Positions 21,921-30,031 of a stretch of DNA of 64,000 nt are shown here, piece after piece. The DNA is from Pseudochryseolinea flava (GTDB taxonomy: Bacteria; Bacteroidota; Bacteroidia; Cytophagales; Cyclobacteriaceae). Below the pieces are notes generated by a model. That model was not told where the DNA came from. It searched no databases and saw only the letters and a program-made list of their open reading frames with translations. A program made the translations under genes and the position numbers. Position 1 is the stretch's first letter. Each line of letters opens with the position of its first letter. Location: contig NZ_QMFY01000005.1 of assembly GCF_003286915.1 (NCBI RefSeq), positions 62,001 through 126,000 of the forward strand, written 5' to 3'.

Positions 21921-22484
21921 ATGCAGAAAAACGGCAAGCAAGATTTTGAGGCTTTATTCAAAAATTATCACCGCCAACTCGTCAATCTTGCTTACAACCT
22001 GCTTCGTGACAAGGATCTGGCCAAAGATGTTGTACAAGAGGTTTTTTTGAAACTCTGGAAAAATAAAGATGAACTCCATTTCGGTGAACAGATTCATCAC
22101 TATCTCTTTCGTGCGACAGTACACACCGCAATGAATGCCATTCGCTTTCAAAAGAAAATTGTTCGAATCGACGACGACCCTGTAATCGATACGCTCACGG
22201 CAAGCGAACACCGCGACGATATTAGCTACACCGAATTGGAAGTTAATGTAAGAGAAGCCATCGATCGATTACCACCGAAATGTAAGACTATCTATTTGTT
22301 GAGTCGACACGAGGGATTAAAGTACCAGCAAATTGCCGATGTGCTCGAATTATCACTCAAAACCGTCGAAAACCAAATGGGAATAGCCTTGGAAAAGCTG
22401 CGACAAGACCTCAAACCTTTTCTAACGCCCAACCTTTTAGTAATCGCGTTGCTTATCGCTTTCGTGCTATGGACAATACTGTAA
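21921..22484 (+). CDS. ECF sigma factor with C-terminal hydrophobic tail
   Basis: 187 residues. Region 2 covers about 10-75 (FEALFKNYHRQLVNLAYNLL, AKDVVQEVFLKLW) and the region 4 helix-turn-helix covers about 110-165 (LPPKCKTIYLLSRHEG, YQQIADVLELSLKTVENQMG). After region 4 the protein ends in TPNLLVIALLIAFVLWTIL, a 17-18 residue hydrophobic run long enough to cross the membrane, which most ECF factors lack. The sigma factor may therefore be tethered to the inner membrane. The next gene encodes a membrane FecR-like anti-sigma factor, 67 bases away, so a sigma/anti-sigma pair sharing the membrane is likely. Confidence 0.9.
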   Translation: MQKNGKQDFEALFKNYHRQLVNLAYNLLRDKDLAKDVVQEVFLKLWKNKDELHFGEQIHHYLFRATVHTAMNAIRFQKKIVRIDDDPVIDTLTASEHRDDISYTELEVNVREAIDRLPPKCKTIYLLSRHEGLKYQQIADVLELSLKTVENQMGIALEKLRQDLKPFLTPNLLVIALLIAFVLWTIL

Positions 22485-22551
22485 AAAAAATTAAAGGCCT
22501 TTGGGGGGAACGCACGACCAACGTGCTATACCAATATACGGGATTAAATAA

Positions 22552-23601
22552 ATGAGCGCCGAGAAACCAAATTGGCATGTAGTAGCAGCATATCTCGCGG
22601 GAGAAATGTCTGCTGATGAGAAAATGAATTTTGAAGCTTGGATTAAAGCATCGAAGGAAAATGAACTGCTTTTCCGCGAGTCACAAATCTTATGGAAAAA
22701 TTCGGGCAAGCGAATTCAACTTGCGGATGTAGATACAGAAAATGAATGGCAGCGGCTTGAACAAAAAATGGTTTCACGTTCGTTCTTCCACGACAACCTG
22801 TGGATGAAAGTCGCCGCAGCGATCGCCCTCCTCGCTGTAGCTATTTACGGACTCATCGTACTCAATCTCAAAGACGATATTATCATTGCCAGCGGCGATC
22901 ACGTAGCTACCGTATATCTCCCTGATAGCACACGCGTGTGGTTGAATGTCAATAGCTCCTTGGTGTATGCCGATGACTTCGATCAGGAACACAGAAAGGT
23001 ACACCTTAAAGGTGAAGGCTATTTTGATGTGCGTCATGACAGCCTGCACAAGTTTGTAGTTACTACTGAAGATGCATCTATCGAAGTACTCGGAACCGCG
23101 TTTAATGTGCAAGAAGATTCTTCTACATTAACATTGTCCGTTGAAAAAGGAAAAGTTCTCTTGTTGCCTTCAGGTCAGAAAAAAGGAGAAGAGGTTGCTG
23201 CTCAGGAAATAATTTCACTGGTGAACAATGTAGTGATGCCGAAGAAAAAAGTTGATGGCGATTTTTCCATCTGGCGTAAAGTTCGGAATCCGCATTATGA
23301 GCTTGAAAAATCTCAACCTCAAAAGTTTCTTAACGTAAAGTTTTCATGGCGCAAGAATGCGATCAATCAATCTGTTGTTGAAGGCAATATTTTGAACACT
23401 GCATCTTTGGCCGAATATACAAACATCGACTTGGCGGTAACCTATTCTAATCTGAAAGGAAAAAGTAAAACCATCACTATTAAAATCGATGGTAAGATCG
23501 GAAACGGTGAAAAGTTGACATTCTCTAAAAAACTTTTTGACATCTTTAGAGATACACAGCATATGGAGGTCTCCGTTCGTGGAGCGGAAGTTGTGCAGTA
23601 A
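22552..23601 (+). CDS. FecR-like anti-sigma factor with atypical C-terminal domain
   Basis: A 349-residue inner-membrane protein: N-terminal anti-sigma domain (about 1-80, containing AAYLAGEMSADEKMNFEAW), one transmembrane helix (about 85-107, AAAIALLAVAIYGLIVL), and a periplasmic FecR domain (about 110-225: VYLPDSTRVWLNVNSSLVY, RKVHLKGEGYFDV, SIEVLGTAFNV). Instead of the usual DUF4974/STN domain, the C-terminal 120 residues contain VVEGNILNTASLAEYTNIDL and a beta-rich end resembling FxLYD-type beta-sandwiches. No SusC/FecA receptor is adjacent, so the signal source is not clear. It follows the membrane-tailed ECF sigma factor in an operon. Confidence 0.85.
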   Translation: MSAEKPNWHVVAAYLAGEMSADEKMNFEAWIKASKENELLFRESQILWKNSGKRIQLADVDTENEWQRLEQKMVSRSFFHDNLWMKVAAAIALLAVAIYGLIVLNLKDDIIIASGDHVATVYLPDSTRVWLNVNSSLVYADDFDQEHRKVHLKGEGYFDVRHDSLHKFVVTTEDASIEVLGTAFNVQEDSSTLTLSVEKGKVLLLPSGQKKGEEVAAQEIISLVNNVVMPKKKVDGDFSIWRKVRNPHYELEKSQPQKFLNVKFSWRKNAINQSVVEGNILNTASLAEYTNIDLAVTYSNLKGKSKTITIKIDGKIGNGEKLTFSKKLFDIFRDTQHMEVSVRGAEVVQ

Positions 23602-23666: not shown

Positions 23667-26600
23667 CTAGTGGGCGATAATAATTTTTTGCGTCGTCATG
23701 ATGTCACGTCCGCGTAGTCTGTAGATGTACAAACCACTAGGCAATTGTTTCGTTTTTAATTCTACGATGTGTGAACCTGACTCGAGGCGTTCATTCACGG
23801 GTGTCGCTACGATTTCTCCACGTTCATTGTACACCGTTAAATTGATGTGCGTTTGTGACGGGAGATGGAAAGATATCAACACACGATCATCGGCTGGGTT
23901 AGGATAACTTTCACTACGATTCAATTCGGTGTTTATAATTTTTGATGTACTGCTACGCGCACCTGCAGACGATGACCATGTTCCACTATTATACCATCCT
24001 TCACCACATCGCGATAGATCGCCGGTTTGTGATGATCCGTTATTACTAAATACAATATTGGTACATGCTGCATTCGGGATGGTGTATTCGTACCATCCGT
24101 TTCCTTCCAACGTCATCGTTGCTCCTGGCCAGGTTGTCGAGGCTGTTCCTGCAGGCATTACATTCCAGTAATGAATCTTCGGTGCTGACCAAGTTGTCTT
24201 CAAGTGAATCCTCAAACCAAGGCGTGGATCGGTATCATACCATACGCCATCGGCAAACCAACCATTTTTATCTCTCGATAGATCGACCGTTTTTAAACTT
24301 GTAGAACCATTGCTGTTGAATATTAAATTAGTCCTGGTCATTGTTGCAGGAAATGTGAATTTGTACCAACCTCCGGTTCCGTCTGGAATCATATCCACAC
24401 CGGGCCAAGTTGTTGCCGTGACCGAGCCTGATGGCGATGCATTCCAATAATGAATTTTAACAGTGGTGCTCCAAGCGGAAGGTTTTCGGAAGTAGACTGT
24501 AAATCCATTGTATGTTCCGATGGTGTATTGGTGTGTTTGAATGTTCGATGCAAGGCTTTGGTTGTCGACTGCAAATACTTTCAAGGTTGTTGTTGAAATG
24601 ATGTTCAACGATGTAGAGCCTACTGCCTGCGTTGAATTGCTAGTAGGCGTCGTGCCGTCTAACGTGTAATAGATCGTCGGCGCTGTTTCACTATTATCTG
24701 TTGCTGTTATCGTAATACTCACGGCACTGTTTCCTGAATATGGACCTGCTGGCGATACATTCACAACGGGAGGTGTATTGGTCGCTTCAGGATTGCTATC
24801 ATACCACGCTCCACCTTTGTACCAGCCATTGGTATTCCGCGAAAGGTCTACTGTTTTGTTCGTGGTAGATCCAGTGTCGTTAAAGATCAAATTCGTGCTG
24901 GTAACATTCGGGAATGTGAAAGTGTGCCATCCACTTGCTTGATCATAGGTCATGTCAACGCCTGGCCAAGTCGTGCTACTTATTGCACCTGCTGGCGATG
25001 TGTTCCAATAATATACCTTGAGCGGGCCTGTCCATGACGCGGGCTTCTTGAAATATACTTTCAAACCGGTGATAGGGCCAATGGTGTACGCATTACTAGC
25101 AACGGCGGATTGTAAATTCTGTGCATCGATCGCGATTGCTTTTACTGTTGTACTCGTTGTTACAGTAAATGGTGTCGAATATAATGTACTCGATGTAGTG
25201 GGTGCGCTGCCGTTGGTCGTGTAGTAAATTTTGATCGGTGTATTTTGTCCGCTCGCGGCAAGTGTCACTTGTAATGGATTTTCATAGTTACCACCCGCGG
25301 GACTCATACTCACCAATGGATTGTTGGGATTGCCACTCCCTGGTTGAAAAAAACCAACACCATTTCCGCCAATGATACCAGGACCGTTCAACACGTAAAC
25401 TCCCGCCGACGAAGGCTGAACAGTGAAACTTAAATTACCATTACTAACTGCGATGGCATTTCCGGTCACAGCATCACGGTAGGTTCCATTTGTCAGTCCT
25501 GAAAAATTGAACGTTACTACGCCATCTTTAGCAAGCCCCACAGCGACTTCACTAATACCAGACTTGCGTACATAACCTACACCATTTCCGTTTGAAGTTC
25601 CTCCCCACGACCATGTGCCATTTTGTAACGCCGGAATCGCTTTACGCATGGCGTTAAGCTTCTTGATGTGTTGATAAATTTTGTGATTCGGCGCATTCGA
25701 AAATTCGTTGCCATAGTATGCACGCCCTGTAAGATCGAGCGATTGACTTATTCCTGCGGCATCGTGAATGTCGGCGTATGCACCTTTTTTGAATTGAACC
25801 TCGGTGCCATAGTATACCACTGGAATGCCGCGCCATGTGAACATAAAATTCATACACGCCGCAAGGTTTTCGGCGCTCCCTCCGAAGCGTTGGTTCCAAT
25901 CGTTGTTAGGACCGAAGTCGTGATTGTCGAGCCACGTGAGTAATGTAGATGGGTCACTATACAAATGATCGTAACGTGCTGCTGCTGTTACGCCAGAAAG
26001 ATTGCCACCGTCTTGAAATACATTGTGAAAAGTAGCCTCAGCATAAAAGTCAAGTACCGCCATACCCGAATTCGCCGATGATCCTACAGCACCGCGCCAC
26101 GTGTACCAATGCGGATTGATTTCCTCTACGGTGTGAAGCTCGTGTCGCTTCTGGGCAACTTCACCAAACACAAACAAATTCGGATTCGCTGCTTTGAATT
26201 TGTCAAGAAAATATAACGCATCTTCTTTGCTCATATGCTTCATCGTATCCCAACGAAATCCGTCAACACCCATGTTGATGAATGTAGTATATGCCGCTAC
26301 CAAATAGTCTCGAACAAATTGGCTACTGGTGTTGAGGTCGGGACAGTCGCCAGCCAGTGCGCGATCGTAAAGATTAACAATATCATCCCAACCTTGCGCA
26401 AATCCATTTCCTGAGTGATGAAACCAATTTGGATCGGAAGTGCTTACAAATGATTCTGTACATGGCCAATTGAAGTTGGCGAGGTTTGAATTATATGGCG
26501 CCGGAAGTTTGGCAATGTTGGCGCGACTCCAAATTTTTCCATCTTGTGGGTTTGGCGTAAGTCCGTCATATTCCCAGGACGCATTGTCTGGCGCATACCA

Positions 26601-27125
26601 CGCTTTCGTTGGATCTGTATTGTACTTAAGTTCTGCTTTGTTCTTGATGCCGAATCGTCCCGAATGATTTGTAACGACATCCAATACGATCTTCATTCCG
26701 CGCGCGTGAACTTCATTGATAAGATCCTGAAATGTAGCGCCAGGCGATTCGAGTCGTGGATCTACCTTGGTGAAATCCCAGGCATGATATCCGTGATAAT
26801 CTAACGGTCCTCGATTTTGAACGATCGGTGTGATCCAAATTGCTGTGAACCCTAAATCTTTGATGTAATCTAGTTTTTGAATGAGCCCCTTGAAATCACC
26901 GCGCCACGTAACATCATTTGGATCGGTGATGGACGGACTATTGGTACCGTAAGAACACCATTCATTGGGTCTGTTGTTGGATGGATCTCCGTCGAAAAAC
27001 CTCGTCGTTATAAGGAAGTAGATCGTTTCTTTTCGAAAGTCTGTTTGTGCGCGTAGACCATGCGTTTGTAGTAACAACATGATCCCGAAACACAAACAAA
27101 AAATTGGTTGTGATTTTGTTTTCAT
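23667..27125 (-). CDS. Secreted GH13 alpha-amylase with three starch-binding modules and T9SS sorting domain
   Basis: 1,152 residues. Order: signal peptide (to about 27, GLRAQ), GH13 catalytic barrel (about 30-590), first CHB_HEX_C-like beta-sandwich (about 605-685), starch-binding module, CBM26-like (about 687-778), second CHB_HEX_C-like domain (about 785-872), two more CBM26-like modules (about 873-965 and 966-1050) and a C-terminal T9SS sorting domain (about 1075-1152, SYPNPADDR...LPSGLYIYRLRGRDIMTTQK). Catalytic residues: D293 in GFRWDTMK, E322 in VFGEVA, D403 in LDNHDFG. It hydrolyses alpha-1,4 glucans outside the cell. The three binding modules share HYWN/YYWN and TTWPGxxM motifs. A CBM-bearing AraC regulator lies upstream. 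Confidence 0.97.
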   Translation of the reverse strand: MKTKSQPIFCLCFGIMLLLQTHGLRAQTDFRKETIYFLITTRFFDGDPSNNRPNEWCSYGTNSPSITDPNDVTWRGDFKGLIQKLDYIKDLGFTAIWITPIVQNRGPLDYHGYHAWDFTKVDPRLESPGATFQDLINEVHARGMKIVLDVVTNHSGRFGIKNKAELKYNTDPTKAWYAPDNASWEYDGLTPNPQDGKIWSRANIAKLPAPYNSNLANFNWPCTESFVSTSDPNWFHHSGNGFAQGWDDIVNLYDRALAGDCPDLNTSSQFVRDYLVAAYTTFINMGVDGFRWDTMKHMSKEDALYFLDKFKAANPNLFVFGEVAQKRHELHTVEEINPHWYTWRGAVGSSANSGMAVLDFYAEATFHNVFQDGGNLSGVTAAARYDHLYSDPSTLLTWLDNHDFGPNNDWNQRFGGSAENLAACMNFMFTWRGIPVVYYGTEVQFKKGAYADIHDAAGISQSLDLTGRAYYGNEFSNAPNHKIYQHIKKLNAMRKAIPALQNGTWSWGGTSNGNGVGYVRKSGISEVAVGLAKDGVVTFNFSGLTNGTYRDAVTGNAIAVSNGNLSFTVQPSSAGVYVLNGPGIIGGNGVGFFQPGSGNPNNPLVSMSPAGGNYENPLQVTLAASGQNTPIKIYYTTNGSAPTTSSTLYSTPFTVTTSTTVKAIAIDAQNLQSAVASNAYTIGPITGLKVYFKKPASWTGPLKVYYWNTSPAGAISSTTWPGVDMTYDQASGWHTFTFPNVTSTNLIFNDTGSTTNKTVDLSRNTNGWYKGGAWYDSNPEATNTPPVVNVSPAGPYSGNSAVSITITATDNSETAPTIYYTLDGTTPTSNSTQAVGSTSLNIISTTTLKVFAVDNQSLASNIQTHQYTIGTYNGFTVYFRKPSAWSTTVKIHYWNASPSGSVTATTWPGVDMIPDGTGGWYKFTFPATMTRTNLIFNSNGSTSLKTVDLSRDKNGWFADGVWYDTDPRLGLRIHLKTTWSAPKIHYWNVMPAGTASTTWPGATMTLEGNGWYEYTIPNAACTNIVFSNNGSSQTGDLSRCGEGWYNSGTWSSSAGARSSTSKIINTELNRSESYPNPADDRVLISFHLPSQTHINLTVYNERGEIVATPVNERLESGSHIVELKTKQLPSGLYIYRLRGRDIMTTQKIIIAH

Positions 27126-27549
27126 AGATCTGGTTTAGGTTGTGGGATAGCAAACCAGCTGCAATCCCTGAAGGGTTTAGTGTGTTAAAAAATTTTGGCT
27201 TTGGTAATTGATCGCGTCTTATTACGATGTGCTAAAGATCTAAGGGGAATGAATGGTATTCGCTCCACGTTATAAAGTGATCGCTGGAATCAATTCAATT
27301 TCATGTGTCATCTGATAAAATGACACGTGCTACTTTTTTGAATGTACTGACGGTAAACGTTTTAATGCCTTGGTCCGCGATATGATGCGATCCTCGTTAC
27401 ACGTGATTAAACTAGAATGCTGGATAGAAAAAATGAACCTTCCTGAGGAATAGCCGCAGTACACGGGAGATGCAAATCGATCAGTTTAATAAATGATTGC
27501 CGTGGAGGCTTTGATGCAAGCACACAAATATGGCAACGATAACGTGCGC
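27126..27549. other. Upstream regulatory region of the alpha-amylase gene, no gene seen
   Basis: This 424-base stretch lies between the amylase start and the stop of the AraC-type regulator, both on the minus strand. It holds an inverted repeat at 27302-27329 and no convincing coding frame. I could not find a TTTG/TAnnTTTG pair at standard spacing. Confidence 0.5.
27302..27329. promoter_or_regulatory. Inverted repeat upstream of alpha-amylase, candidate operator
   Basis: CATGTGTCAT (27302-27311) matches ATGACACGTG (27320-27329) as an inverted repeat with nine of ten pairs and an 8-base gap. It lies about 180 bases upstream of the amylase ATG (minus strand). The T-run expected of a terminator is absent, so I read it as a possible binding site for the neighbouring AraC-family protein, which is inference. 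Confidence 0.4.
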
Positions 27550-29409
27550 TCAGGAGATGCTTTCAAGTTGCGTTTCGGCAACGTTAAAAAATTCCCGCGG
27601 CGTTTTACCCGTTGTTTTCTTAAAGGAGCGATTAAACGTAGTCTTCGAACTAAAACCAACTTCCATCGCTAAGGCCAAAAATGTATAATGTTTGTATTGA
27701 TCACTGGCGACCAACTTTTTGAATTCTTCGATCCGATATTCATTGATGAAATCGAAAAAATTCTTCTGATAGCCTTCATTAATGATGCGCGATAAAGTAT
27801 GAACGTTGGTATGCATCTGGTCCGCAAGTTCTTGCAACGTAAGCTTTGCGTTGAGAAACGGCTTATCTTTCCGCATCATGTGCGCAAGCGAATTTTTTAA
27901 TGTGTCGATATTGTCTTTTACCACTGTCGCCGATTTCTGTTTTTCTTCGTCTTCTTTTACAATCCGGAAAAGCATCGGGTATCGCATGATTAACACTGCA
28001 TGCATCGACGTGGAAAGCGCAAATACAACCCAAAAGATATCGACATTGACCTCATGGAAAATGCGTAGATCAGCGTGAAAAATTTTCCCGGAAATATAAA
28101 CGACGTGTGTACAGAACCAGAGTAGGAGACAAAGGCCACTATGCACAAATAGCGCGGTTACATAAGCGAACGAGTTTGGTCTCCCGTAGAGTTTCCCTGG
28201 CCTGAAGTAGTGTTCGTTCAAAAGACGTGCACAAAAAATCCAGCAGATGATGTTGTACACTAAACCGATCAGCTCCGTAGCGTTGAATAACCAAAAATAT
28301 TTTTGATCGATAATTGAATTGATAAAGATGTCCCGTGGTTGTATGAGCAACGGAACATAGAAAGCAAACTGGAGAAGCATGGGAATCAAGAAAATCCATT
28401 TCAAATACCTTGACCTGTTGCTGATGCCAGACAAACTTTTGATCACTGCAAAAAACATCGGTGCATAAAGAAAATACACGAAGTCGGAAAGCAGAAGTAC
28501 TTTCGGCGCCCAATTGAACAAAGTCCTGTTGTATGTTGCTGTGCGCGCGAAAAGCACGAGGCATGTAATACCCAGCAGTCCCGTGAATAGCCAACCAAGT
28601 TCACGATGTCGATCTTTCATTCCTGCGATAGAAACGATGAGGATGATCGCTTGAAACGCACTTGCTAAGAGTATAAAAGAGTAGAGTAGGTTTGTGCCAT
28701 TCGTAAGATCTTCCCATCCTTCTATGCTGCATGTGATGTTTTTTACGGTAGCGCCTTTGTTCCAAACAGCGTGGCGATTATACAGGGTTCTCCCGTTGTA
28801 ACGCGCTTCTACCGACGACCAACTTCCGCGATTAAATTTGAACCATAGCGAGTCCGTTGTTTTACGAATGTTAATGCCATAAGTACCATTGTCAAGACGC
28901 ACAAGTTTGAAGTTCGCGTCGTTCTCTTTCCAGTTGTTAAAACTCCCAGCAATGTATAACGATGCGTCAAATGGGGTGTTCGCAGGAATGTCTTCGACAA
29001 CGATACTCCAGTGGTATAGGAGCGCCTGGTCTTCCCAGCTTAATATTTGTATTGTTAAAGAATCTGGCGTTTGTGTTTCGTTCACGTGATTTCGATCACC
29101 CGTCTTATTGCCATTGATGTCGCCCTCAACGGTTGCCCATGAACCGCGTGTCACTTTGAAATCTATTTTCTTCGGCGTCTGCGGCAGCGTGATGGTGTAC
29201 GTTCCGTTTTTCTGTTTTAGAAATTGATAGGCGTCTTTCCCAGGACTCCAATCGTTTATTGTGCCCGCGAGAAATAACGTGTCGTGAGGCGGCGTGTGTT
29301 CCGGTACCTTGTCCACAATGATCGTGAGCTGTGCTGATGCTTGGAATGCTATCAAGAACAGCAAGAAGGCAACGATGTTCGTCAACGGTATGGCTACATT
29401 TTTCTGCAT
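27550..29409 (-). CDS. Membrane-bound AraC-family regulator with two extracytoplasmic CBM20-like domains
   Basis: I use the ATG at 29409; an in-frame GTG at 29418 would add three residues. About 619 residues: signal-like segment (to about 27, FQASAQ), two tandem CBM20-like domains (about 28-125 and 133-230; each has LFLAGTINDW or LYIAGSFNNW, GTY, FKVTRGSWATVEG or FKFNRGSWSSVEA and an N-R end), then about seven transmembrane helices (about 240-490), and an AraC helix-turn-helix (about 515-615: LTLQELADQMHTNVHTLSRI, GFSSKTTFNRSFKKTTGKTP). Periplasmic glucan binding coupled to DNA binding is inferred. It lies upstream of the amylase gene on the same strand. Confidence 0.88.
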   Translation of the reverse strand: MQKNVAIPLTNIVAFLLFLIAFQASAQLTIIVDKVPEHTPPHDTLFLAGTINDWSPGKDAYQFLKQKNGTYTITLPQTPKKIDFKVTRGSWATVEGDINGNKTGDRNHVNETQTPDSLTIQILSWEDQALLYHWSIVVEDIPANTPFDASLYIAGSFNNWKENDANFKLVRLDNGTYGINIRKTTDSLWFKFNRGSWSSVEARYNGRTLYNRHAVWNKGATVKNITCSIEGWEDLTNGTNLLYSFILLASAFQAIILIVSIAGMKDRHRELGWLFTGLLGITCLVLFARTATYNRTLFNWAPKVLLLSDFVYFLYAPMFFAVIKSLSGISNRSRYLKWIFLIPMLLQFAFYVPLLIQPRDIFINSIIDQKYFWLFNATELIGLVYNIICWIFCARLLNEHYFRPGKLYGRPNSFAYVTALFVHSGLCLLLWFCTHVVYISGKIFHADLRIFHEVNVDIFWVVFALSTSMHAVLIMRYPMLFRIVKEDEEKQKSATVVKDNIDTLKNSLAHMMRKDKPFLNAKLTLQELADQMHTNVHTLSRIINEGYQKNFFDFINEYRIEEFKKLVASDQYKHYTFLALAMEVGFSSKTTFNRSFKKTTGKTPREFFNVAETQLESIS

Positions 29410-29490
29410 ACACTTCACGCGTATCAGTTGGTTTAGGTTGTGAAATATCGAGGGGATTGGCTACCGGCAAGATAAAAGTAGCATATTCAG

Positions 29491-29557
29491 CAAACGTTTG
29501 AAATTTTATCTCCGCAATCGTTTGTGATAACGAATTAGTGTCGTTAAATCGATTGCG
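29491..29557. promoter_or_regulatory. Palindrome plus long inverted repeat between divergent genes
   Basis: CAAACGTTTG (29491-29500) is a perfect 10-base palindrome. Close by, CGCAATCG (29513-29520) and CGATTGCG (29550-29557) form inverted arms, with inner AACGA/TCGTT arms enclosing ATTAGTG. Both lie between the AraC-type gene start and the truncated-haemoglobin start. They may be binding sites for divergent control or a structured leader. Confidence 0.4.
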
Positions 29558-29665
29558 TTAAAAATGACTCACTTTAAAATAGAAGTTTCAATAGAGCGTG
29601 ATGTACGGAGGGATGTTTGTGCGATGGCGTACGAATCGTGGTGTTGCAATCCGTATTTTTGCTCT

Positions 29666-30031
29666 ATGGAACTTACTACATACGATCGCCTGGGAGAAGA
29701 TAATCTGCGCTTGATGGTCGATCGTTTCTACGATCTAGTCTTCAGTCATCCACAGATTTCTCGCTTGTTCAAAACCGATAAGGCATTGATAAAAGAAAAG
29801 CAGCGTTTGTTCTTAACACAATTCTTTGGTGGACCTGATCTTTATTCACAACAGTATGGCCACCCTCGAATGCGCGCGCGTCACATGCCTCATGCTATCG
29901 CTGAAGAAGATGCAGTCGCATGGCTTCAATGTATGTCGCAAGCCGTTCACAGTCTCGATATCGAGGAATCTCTGAAAGACGAAATGATGAAGCGGTTTAT
30001 TCCGACAGCGATGTTTATGGTCAACAGCTAG
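29666..30031 (+). CDS. Group II truncated haemoglobin
   Basis: I chose the ATG at 29666 (MELTTYDRLGEDNLRL); the reading frame extends up to ATG 29564, but those 34 residues are not family-like. The 121-residue protein has the truncated haemoglobin pattern: LMVDRFYDLVF, FFGGPDLYSQQYGHPRMRARHMPHAI (the proximal His lies in the RHMPH part), and AVAWLQCM with the Trp typical of group II. It is cytoplasmic and may bind oxygen or detoxify NO/peroxides. No operon partner is visible; it is divergent from the AraC-type regulator. Confidence 0.9.
   Translation: MELTTYDRLGEDNLRLMVDRFYDLVFSHPQISRLFKTDKALIKEKQRLFLTQFFGGPDLYSQQYGHPRMRARHMPHAIAEEDAVAWLQCMSQAVHSLDIEESLKDEMMKRFIPTAMFMVNS

Follow-up and report, generated by a model that had tools for sequence, protein, structure and literature searches.

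Can a single membrane protein carry the news that starch is present directly to the genes that degrade it? The question is raised by a 619-aa regulator encoded on the minus strand of a 64,000-nt stretch of Pseudochryseolinea flava DNA (hereafter the window), just upstream of a starch-binding alpha-amylase. A sequence-only reading of the window had put forward two CBM20-like N-terminal domains, about seven transmembrane helices and an AraC helix-turn-helix in one chain, an arrangement that would let external glucan control DNA binding from the membrane.

Architecture of the regulator

The gene runs from an ATG at 29409 to a stop codon that ends at 27550, with a GTG at 29418 as a possible alternative start, and comprises the following parts.

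27550–29409, minus strand: CBM-CBM-7TM-AraC membrane regulator gene, 619 aa (open reading frame, Pfam, AlphaFold2 model)
29332–29409, minus strand: signal peptide, residues 1–26, ending ...AFQASA (read from the sequence; predicted helix 9–24)
29026–29331, minus strand: alpha-glucan-binding-type domain A, residues 27–128, with W54, K85 and W91 (profile, model)
28696–29022, minus strand: alpha-glucan-binding-type domain B, residues 130–238, with W160, K191 and W197 (domain model, Foldseek, conservation)
27967–28695, minus strand: seven predicted transmembrane helices, residues 239–481 (model; no Pfam family)
27868–27954, minus strand: predicted cytoplasmic linker helix, residues 486–514 (model, low confidence at 486–499)
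27586–27828, minus strand: AraC-type HTH_18 DNA-binding domain, residues 528–608 (Pfam E 4e-15)

The analysis confirms this architecture of signal peptide, two homologous glucan-binding-type domains, seven transmembrane helices and AraC helix-turn-helix, and the arrangement proposed from the sequence holds in each of its parts. The same domain order, with one to three CBMs ahead of the membrane part, recurs in 66 distinct loci from other genomes and the window, and is thus not a chance fusion. An AlphaFold2 model of the regulator, computed with 29 family sequences (mean pLDDT 86), places two beta domains at about 28–121 and 133–228, followed by seven helices at residues 239–263, 269–293, 304–327, 342–367 (with short breaks), 372–402, 411–443 and 449–476. 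At the C-terminus, HTH_18 and HTH_AraC both exceed their curated Pfam cut-offs (56.3 bits against 33.6 and 37.3 against 26.6), and HTH_18 is matched by all 29 family members (E <= 0.1), which places the protein in the AraC/XylS type. Pfam searches of the 619-aa chain at E <= 1 found no histidine kinase or receiver domain, no NCBIfam model spans the chain at its cut-off, and no Rfam family lies within 27000–29600.

By sequence, domain A and domain B are two copies of one unit: a single profile of 36 domain B sequences, which has the regulator's own domain B among its rows but not its domain A, finds both (E 6.5e-33 at residues 26–128 and E 5.2e-39 at 132–237). Modelled alone (pLDDT 95), domain B adopts the beta-sandwich fold of the CBM20/CBM48/AMPK glycogen-binding superfamily, and its 16 best Foldseek matches in the PDB without exception bind alpha-glucan or are domains of a glucan-binding type (AMPK/SNF1 glycogen-binding domains, the CBM20 domains of STBD1 and human GDPD5, B. 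cereus beta-amylase, CGTases, CBM41), at modest E values of 0.0019 or worse, none reaching 0.001. The AMPK glycogen-binding domain, the STBD1 CBM20 with maltotetraose, the starch-binding domain of B. cereus beta-amylase and CBM41 are among the seven best, and the top entries are 1z0n, 8x8k, 1cqy and also 2j71 (TM about 0.5–0.66, E about 0.002–0.004). Because no CBM Pfam family passes its cut-off on the 619-aa regulator itself (CBM53 E 0.083, 13.6 bits against 27.6; X25 E 0.12, 13 against 27), the label "CBM20-like" rests on fold and relatives. Among those relatives, Pfam at E <= 1 finds AMPK1_CBM in 17 of the 36 domain B members (best 1.7e-6), X25 in 14, CBM53 in 13 and CBM48 in nine; the same domain in a tandem-repeat protein of locus L187 passes both AMPK1_CBM (33.1 against 26.8) and CBM_20 (24.1 against 23.3), and the best PDB match of the family profile is BoGH13A of a Bacteroides Sus system (E 0.0026).

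Within the family, W54 of domain A is present in 48 of the 48 rows that have the domain, and in the 66-row alignment of domain B, where two rows have a gap, W160 and R194 are kept in 64 of 64 rows with the residue, K191 in 63 of 64, W197 in 62 of 64 and E201 in 62–64 of 64. In AMPK, the FNNW and YKF..W residues contact glucan; the family profile aligns FNNW...YKF...W with AMPK beta-2, and these aromatic and lysine contact positions are in place and conserved in the regulators, with the AMPK alignment itself reaching only a weak E of 0.05. The domains thus share with the AMPK beta-subunit glycogen-binding domain, CBM20 and CBM48 a common fold and an aligned motif, but differ from them in sitting on a bacterial membrane regulator and in having the further conserved residues R194, E201, N211 and R212. 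Overall, we infer that the N-terminal domains bind alpha-glucan.

Other proteins carry the domain as well. The frames at L185:972-2015 (+) and L187:535-2208 (-), of 348 and 558 aa, consist mostly of tandem copies of it; by eye both have a lipoprotein-like start, and they are possibly surface or periplasmic starch binders. In L182:1072-2487 (+), L189:1209-2363 (+) and L191:213-1658 (-), a glucan-binding-type domain is followed by a PF00756 esterase, with a type IX secretion tail matched in two of the three, one of these two matches lying just below the cut-off.

The seven model helices are read here as seven putative membrane spans. The mean K+R fraction of the loops is 0.11–0.16 inside and 0.03–0.13 outside, a weak positive-inside bias that is compatible with a cytoplasmic C-terminus without proving it. 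A transporter identity for the membrane part, which would have spoken against the sequence-only reading, was considered and rejected: among 29 members no convincing transporter family appeared in Pfam at E <= 0.1, where the scattered matches were PHO4 in one (E 0.015) and Tetraspanin in four (best E 0.005).

In 7TMR-DISM receptors, an all-beta domain in the periplasm precedes seven membrane helices and an output on the cytoplasmic side. The regulator resembles them in this succession, but it has no 7TMR-DISM membrane or DISMED match in Pfam at E <= 1 and its output is DNA-binding; this identity was likewise rejected, and neither 7TMR-DISM nor DISMED is among the 23 Pfam families that 29 members match at E <= 0.1. 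The whole model also resembles GPCRs in Foldseek (E 0.003 or worse, rmsd mostly 6–20 A), many of which align with the seven-helix part (27967–28695, minus strand); this is probably a generic likeness between seven-helix bundles, and was taken as such.

Association with starch genes across the family

In the window, the next gene downstream of the regulator, on the same strand and across a gap of 424 nt, is the amylase named in the sequence-only reading:

23667–27125, minus strand: secreted alpha-amylase with GH13, three CBM26, CHB_HEX_C and a type IX secretion tail (Pfam)

This CBM26 alpha-amylase is likely the regulator's target gene. The same genome encodes a second regulator, a single-CBM paralogue that is likewise followed by a GH13 gene; the second gene after that amylase (L193:7136-10000, plus strand) encodes a Reg_prop/Y_Y_Y sensor-type protein. 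Elsewhere around the window's regulator, frames at 21921–23601 (plus strand), which stop 65 nt short of the amylase gene's 3' end, appear by eye to encode an ECF sigma factor with a FecR-type anti-sigma factor, and the divergent neighbour at 29564–30031 (plus strand) appears by eye to encode a truncated haemoglobin.

The regulator belongs to a Bacteroidota family, whose architecture was sought in other genomes by several routes. An order-wide search of 291 genomes with a CBM-plus-membrane profile gave matches in 84; among the rows listed, 42 of these extend over the CBM and the greater share of the membrane part, and the others cover one part alone, usually the CBM within a different protein. 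A scan of named genomes gave 28 CBM-7TM-AraC loci among the best 80 of at least 579 matched stretches (569 confirmed); these 28 come from Flammeovirga, Fibrisoma, Spirosoma, Runella, Emticicia, Dyadobacter, Hymenobacter, Reichenbachiella, Daejeonella, Cellulophaga baltica, Natronoflexus, Saprospiraceae MAGs and other sources. Adding 45 regions found in other genomes and the window brings the total to 74 loci; seven duplicates were removed and L158 was left uncounted by ORF picking, though it holds an open regulator frame, giving the 66 distinct loci. By profile count the regulators have two CBMs in 47 cases, one in 16 and three in one; in L071 and L074 the picked ORFs start after the CBM, and the full open frames hold one each. 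The architecture is patchy and, in a phylum-wide sample searched at E <= 1e-40, rare outside the window's order, as it was found in four of 395 genomes, all within that order; named loci do exist in Saprospiraceae, Cellulophaga, Daejeonella and Natronoflexus.

The amylase linkage extends well beyond the window, as had been anticipated. A GH13 gene lies within about 10 kb in 47 of 66 CBM-type loci and in three of 52 control loci (Fisher p 8e-14), SusD in 29 of 66 against 0 of 52 (Fisher p 2e-9), SusC in 32 against three and SusE in 25 against one, with the reservation that the profiles were built from the case loci, which favours the case set, and that related species are not independent. The controls surround other AraC regulators without CBM domains from the same scan, and a profile search found a CBM domain in none of the 52; the 20 controls that have a membrane part include two with SusC and none with SusD or SusE. 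The GH13 count is that of the profile search, clustering having given 48, and in the 19 loci without GH13 in the DNA examined some contigs are short and seven have SusC or SusD. When frames of at least 150 aa are considered, an adjacent gene is GH13 or SusC in 49 of 66 loci, and the next downstream gene on the same strand is SusC in 19 and GH13 in 17, the window being of the GH13 type. The order regulator-susC-susD-susE-GH13 is frequent, and cluster representatives, taken mostly from one locus, are SusC, SusD, SusE and GH13 (one with SusG_C) by Pfam. Directly downstream of the regulator, L059, L066, L150 and L154 each have a gene from one and the same sequence cluster, whose member in L066 is a GH53 galactanase by Pfam, an odd presence in a starch locus.

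A quick tree of the membrane-plus-HTH part, with 66 CBM-type and 25 CBM-less proteins, puts 58 CBM-type proteins, including the window's, on one side. Six single-CBM proteins group apart, as a clade placed among the CBM-less proteins, with GH13 as the downstream neighbour in all six, and two long-branched CBM-type proteins (L161 and L172) also fall on the CBM-less side. The CBM sensor may have been joined to the membrane scaffold at least twice, or perhaps only once.

A candidate operator between regulator and target

Many gaps between regulator and target gene hold inverted repeats of one palindrome type, the 22–23-bp GTGCCATTTT-N2/3-AAAATGGCAC, mostly 100–230 nt upstream of the target start. 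Applied to 56 held-out loci, some of them close relatives of training loci, a palindromic matrix trained on eight loci (GTGCCATTTT...AAAATGGCAC) had its best match within the whole locus in the gap behind the regulator 17 times, against 0.96 expected by length; in the other 39 the best match lies elsewhere. A pattern search of eleven genomes, with two mismatches allowed, found exactly one copy, located in the regulator gap, in six (G330, G271, G278, G282, G172 and G290, three of whose loci were training loci), and a copy in the gap with one or two further sites in two more. Two Hymenobacter-type genomes gave no copy at this setting, and the window's own genome gave three sites of the SusC-type consensus, none of them at the regulator. 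As the candidate operator of the family, the palindrome is well supported.

In the window, the sequence-only reading had pointed to 27302–27329 as a place to look for DNA binding, and this site coincides with a diverged copy of the palindrome conserved in relatives:

27305–27326: candidate operator GTGTCATTTTATCAGATGACAC (as read on the minus strand), inside the inverted repeat 27302–27329 (diverged family palindrome match)

The site starts 201 nt before the amylase ATG. By half-site scoring it is the fourth best in the 64 kb, and 14 of 2000 gap shuffles reach its score; with the 23-mer matrix it falls outside the window's top three. We regard it as a likely candidate operator. The strict form GTGTCAT-N8-ATGACAC, allowing up to two mismatches, occurs at 24 distinct places in the genome (one exact, the window site itself, one with a single mismatch elsewhere and 22 with two) against 11 for the reversed control pattern, and for this reason we claim no regulon from it. 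A Bacteroidota promoter pattern gave three matches in the window against 2.9 in shuffles, none of them in the gap.

An inverted repeat behind a gene may also be a transcription terminator, and in the window a T run does come after it on the plus strand; we nevertheless think it rather unlikely that the palindrome ends transcription of the regulator gene or is bound by a different transcription factor. The conservation of GTGCCATTTT across genera is unneeded for a terminator, and the single copy per genome in six genomes speaks against a global factor. In addition, the clade of six single-CBM regulators shows another hexamer, GTCCTA/TAGGAC, in five of its six gaps against one of 30 others, and GTRCCA/TGGYAC is found in 21 of those 30 against one of the six.

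A probable one-component alpha-glucan receptor and its relation to known sensors

Overall, we are fairly confident that the regulator acts as a one-component receptor for alpha-glucan in the inner membrane, responding to malto-oligosaccharides in the periplasm by turning on starch genes. Once exported, its two CBM20/CBM48/AMPK-type domains would bind malto-oligosaccharides or another alpha-glucan there, and their occupancy would rearrange the seven-helix membrane part or a dimer, the chain presumably crossing the membrane seven times and ending in the cytoplasm. This rearrangement would in turn alter the binding of the cytoplasmic AraC domain to the 22–23-bp palindrome upstream of the starch genes, the regulator's putative operator, and so switch on its probable targets, susCDE-GH13 in many relatives and the CBM26 amylase in the window. 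The original proposal of external glucan as the signal needs one correction: since the domains should face the periplasm, the likely signal is imported malto-oligosaccharide and not glucan outside the cell.

We consider it improbable, slightly more so than a terminator, that the CBMs do no more than tether glucan or raise its local concentration, or retain an ancestral function in binding, and that the true signal is perceived by the membrane part, as a small sugar or another molecule, or arrives through a partner protein. CBM-less 7TM-AraC proteins do exist (for example, L077, L080–L083 and L085 match only from about residue 240, with no CBM in those loci), and in them the membrane part must receive its own signal; membrane AraC regulators with 6–7 membrane regions also adjoin cellulases in Saccharophagus (PMC2386152, in excerpt). 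GH13, however, is near 47 of 66 CBM-type loci against two of 20 CBM-less 7TM-type loci, and the CBM therefore predicts the starch role. That the regulator is a repressor released by glucan, or mainly controls its own gene, is the least probable of these alternatives, for although the distance of the palindrome from the target start and palindromes as such fit repression too, AraC proteins are mostly activators and the clear palindromes stand between the regulator's stop codon and the following gene instead of ahead of the regulator.

A putative periplasmic alpha-glucan receptor of this kind can be set beside several known systems, here compared through the excerpted descriptions in the papers cited. 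SusR of Bacteroides thetaiotaomicron (BT3705) is described as a membrane-bound activator of starch genes that senses on the periplasmic side and binds DNA on the cytoplasmic side; it is reported to bind maltose and to have a DNA-binding domain without significant similarity to those of other known regulators (PMC3878776). Like SusR, the regulator is a membrane protein with a predicted periplasmic sensor and is linked to starch genes, its topology being taken from the model; going by that description of SusR, it is set apart by its clear AraC domain, seven-helix part and CBM20/48-type sensors. It is best explained as a counterpart of SusR in function that is built differently. A Pontibacter alpha-glucan locus, as excerpted, has also been drawn with its regulator labelled SusR (PMC11206854).

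The nearest precedent we found, at the level of these excerpts, is the group of membrane-bound AraC regulators of Saccharophagus degradans, which have 6–7 transmembrane regions, lie next to cellulases and were proposed to be detectors of extracellular polysaccharide (PMC2386152). As described, their chain likewise combines an AraC helix-turn-helix with 6–7 transmembrane helices and is encoded near genes for glycan degradation, but the excerpt mentions no sensor CBM, and the context there is cellulose or xylan whereas here it is alpha-glucan. HTCS proteins, as excerpted, also unite sugar sensing in the periplasm and an AraC DNA-binding domain in a single chain linked to polysaccharide utilisation genes, and they contain kinase and receiver domains (PMC3878776); the regulator differs in lacking a match to either (Pfam, E <= 1) and in having a sensor of another fold. 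In keeping with the sequence-only reading, which knew of none, no characterised protein of this architecture came to light: in open-licence PMC literature, covered mostly at the level of titles and the beginnings of abstracts, we found no description of the CBM-7TM-AraC arrangement or its starch role, and the regulator looks like an undescribed type of starch sensor.

On starch sensing in non-gut Bacteroidota (Cytophagales, Saprospiraceae and others) we found little in print. With a candidate sensor now named, a candidate operator that occurs just once in six of the 11 genomes searched, and an adjoining starch locus in dozens of genomes, the question can be tested directly. If the mechanism proposed here is true, a carbohydrate-binding module governs a transcription factor with no kinase between them, all within one compact membrane receptor that would also be useful as a scaffold for alpha-glucan biosensors. 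In this context, we give about even chances to a broader view: that such proteins constitute a fourth class of regulator of Bacteroidota polysaccharide loci, beside SusR, HTCS and ECF sigma/anti-sigma pairs, one of seven-helix receptors in which glucan binding by periplasmic CBMs would act directly on an AraC dimer bound to DNA, and whose scaffold possibly acquired its CBM more than once.
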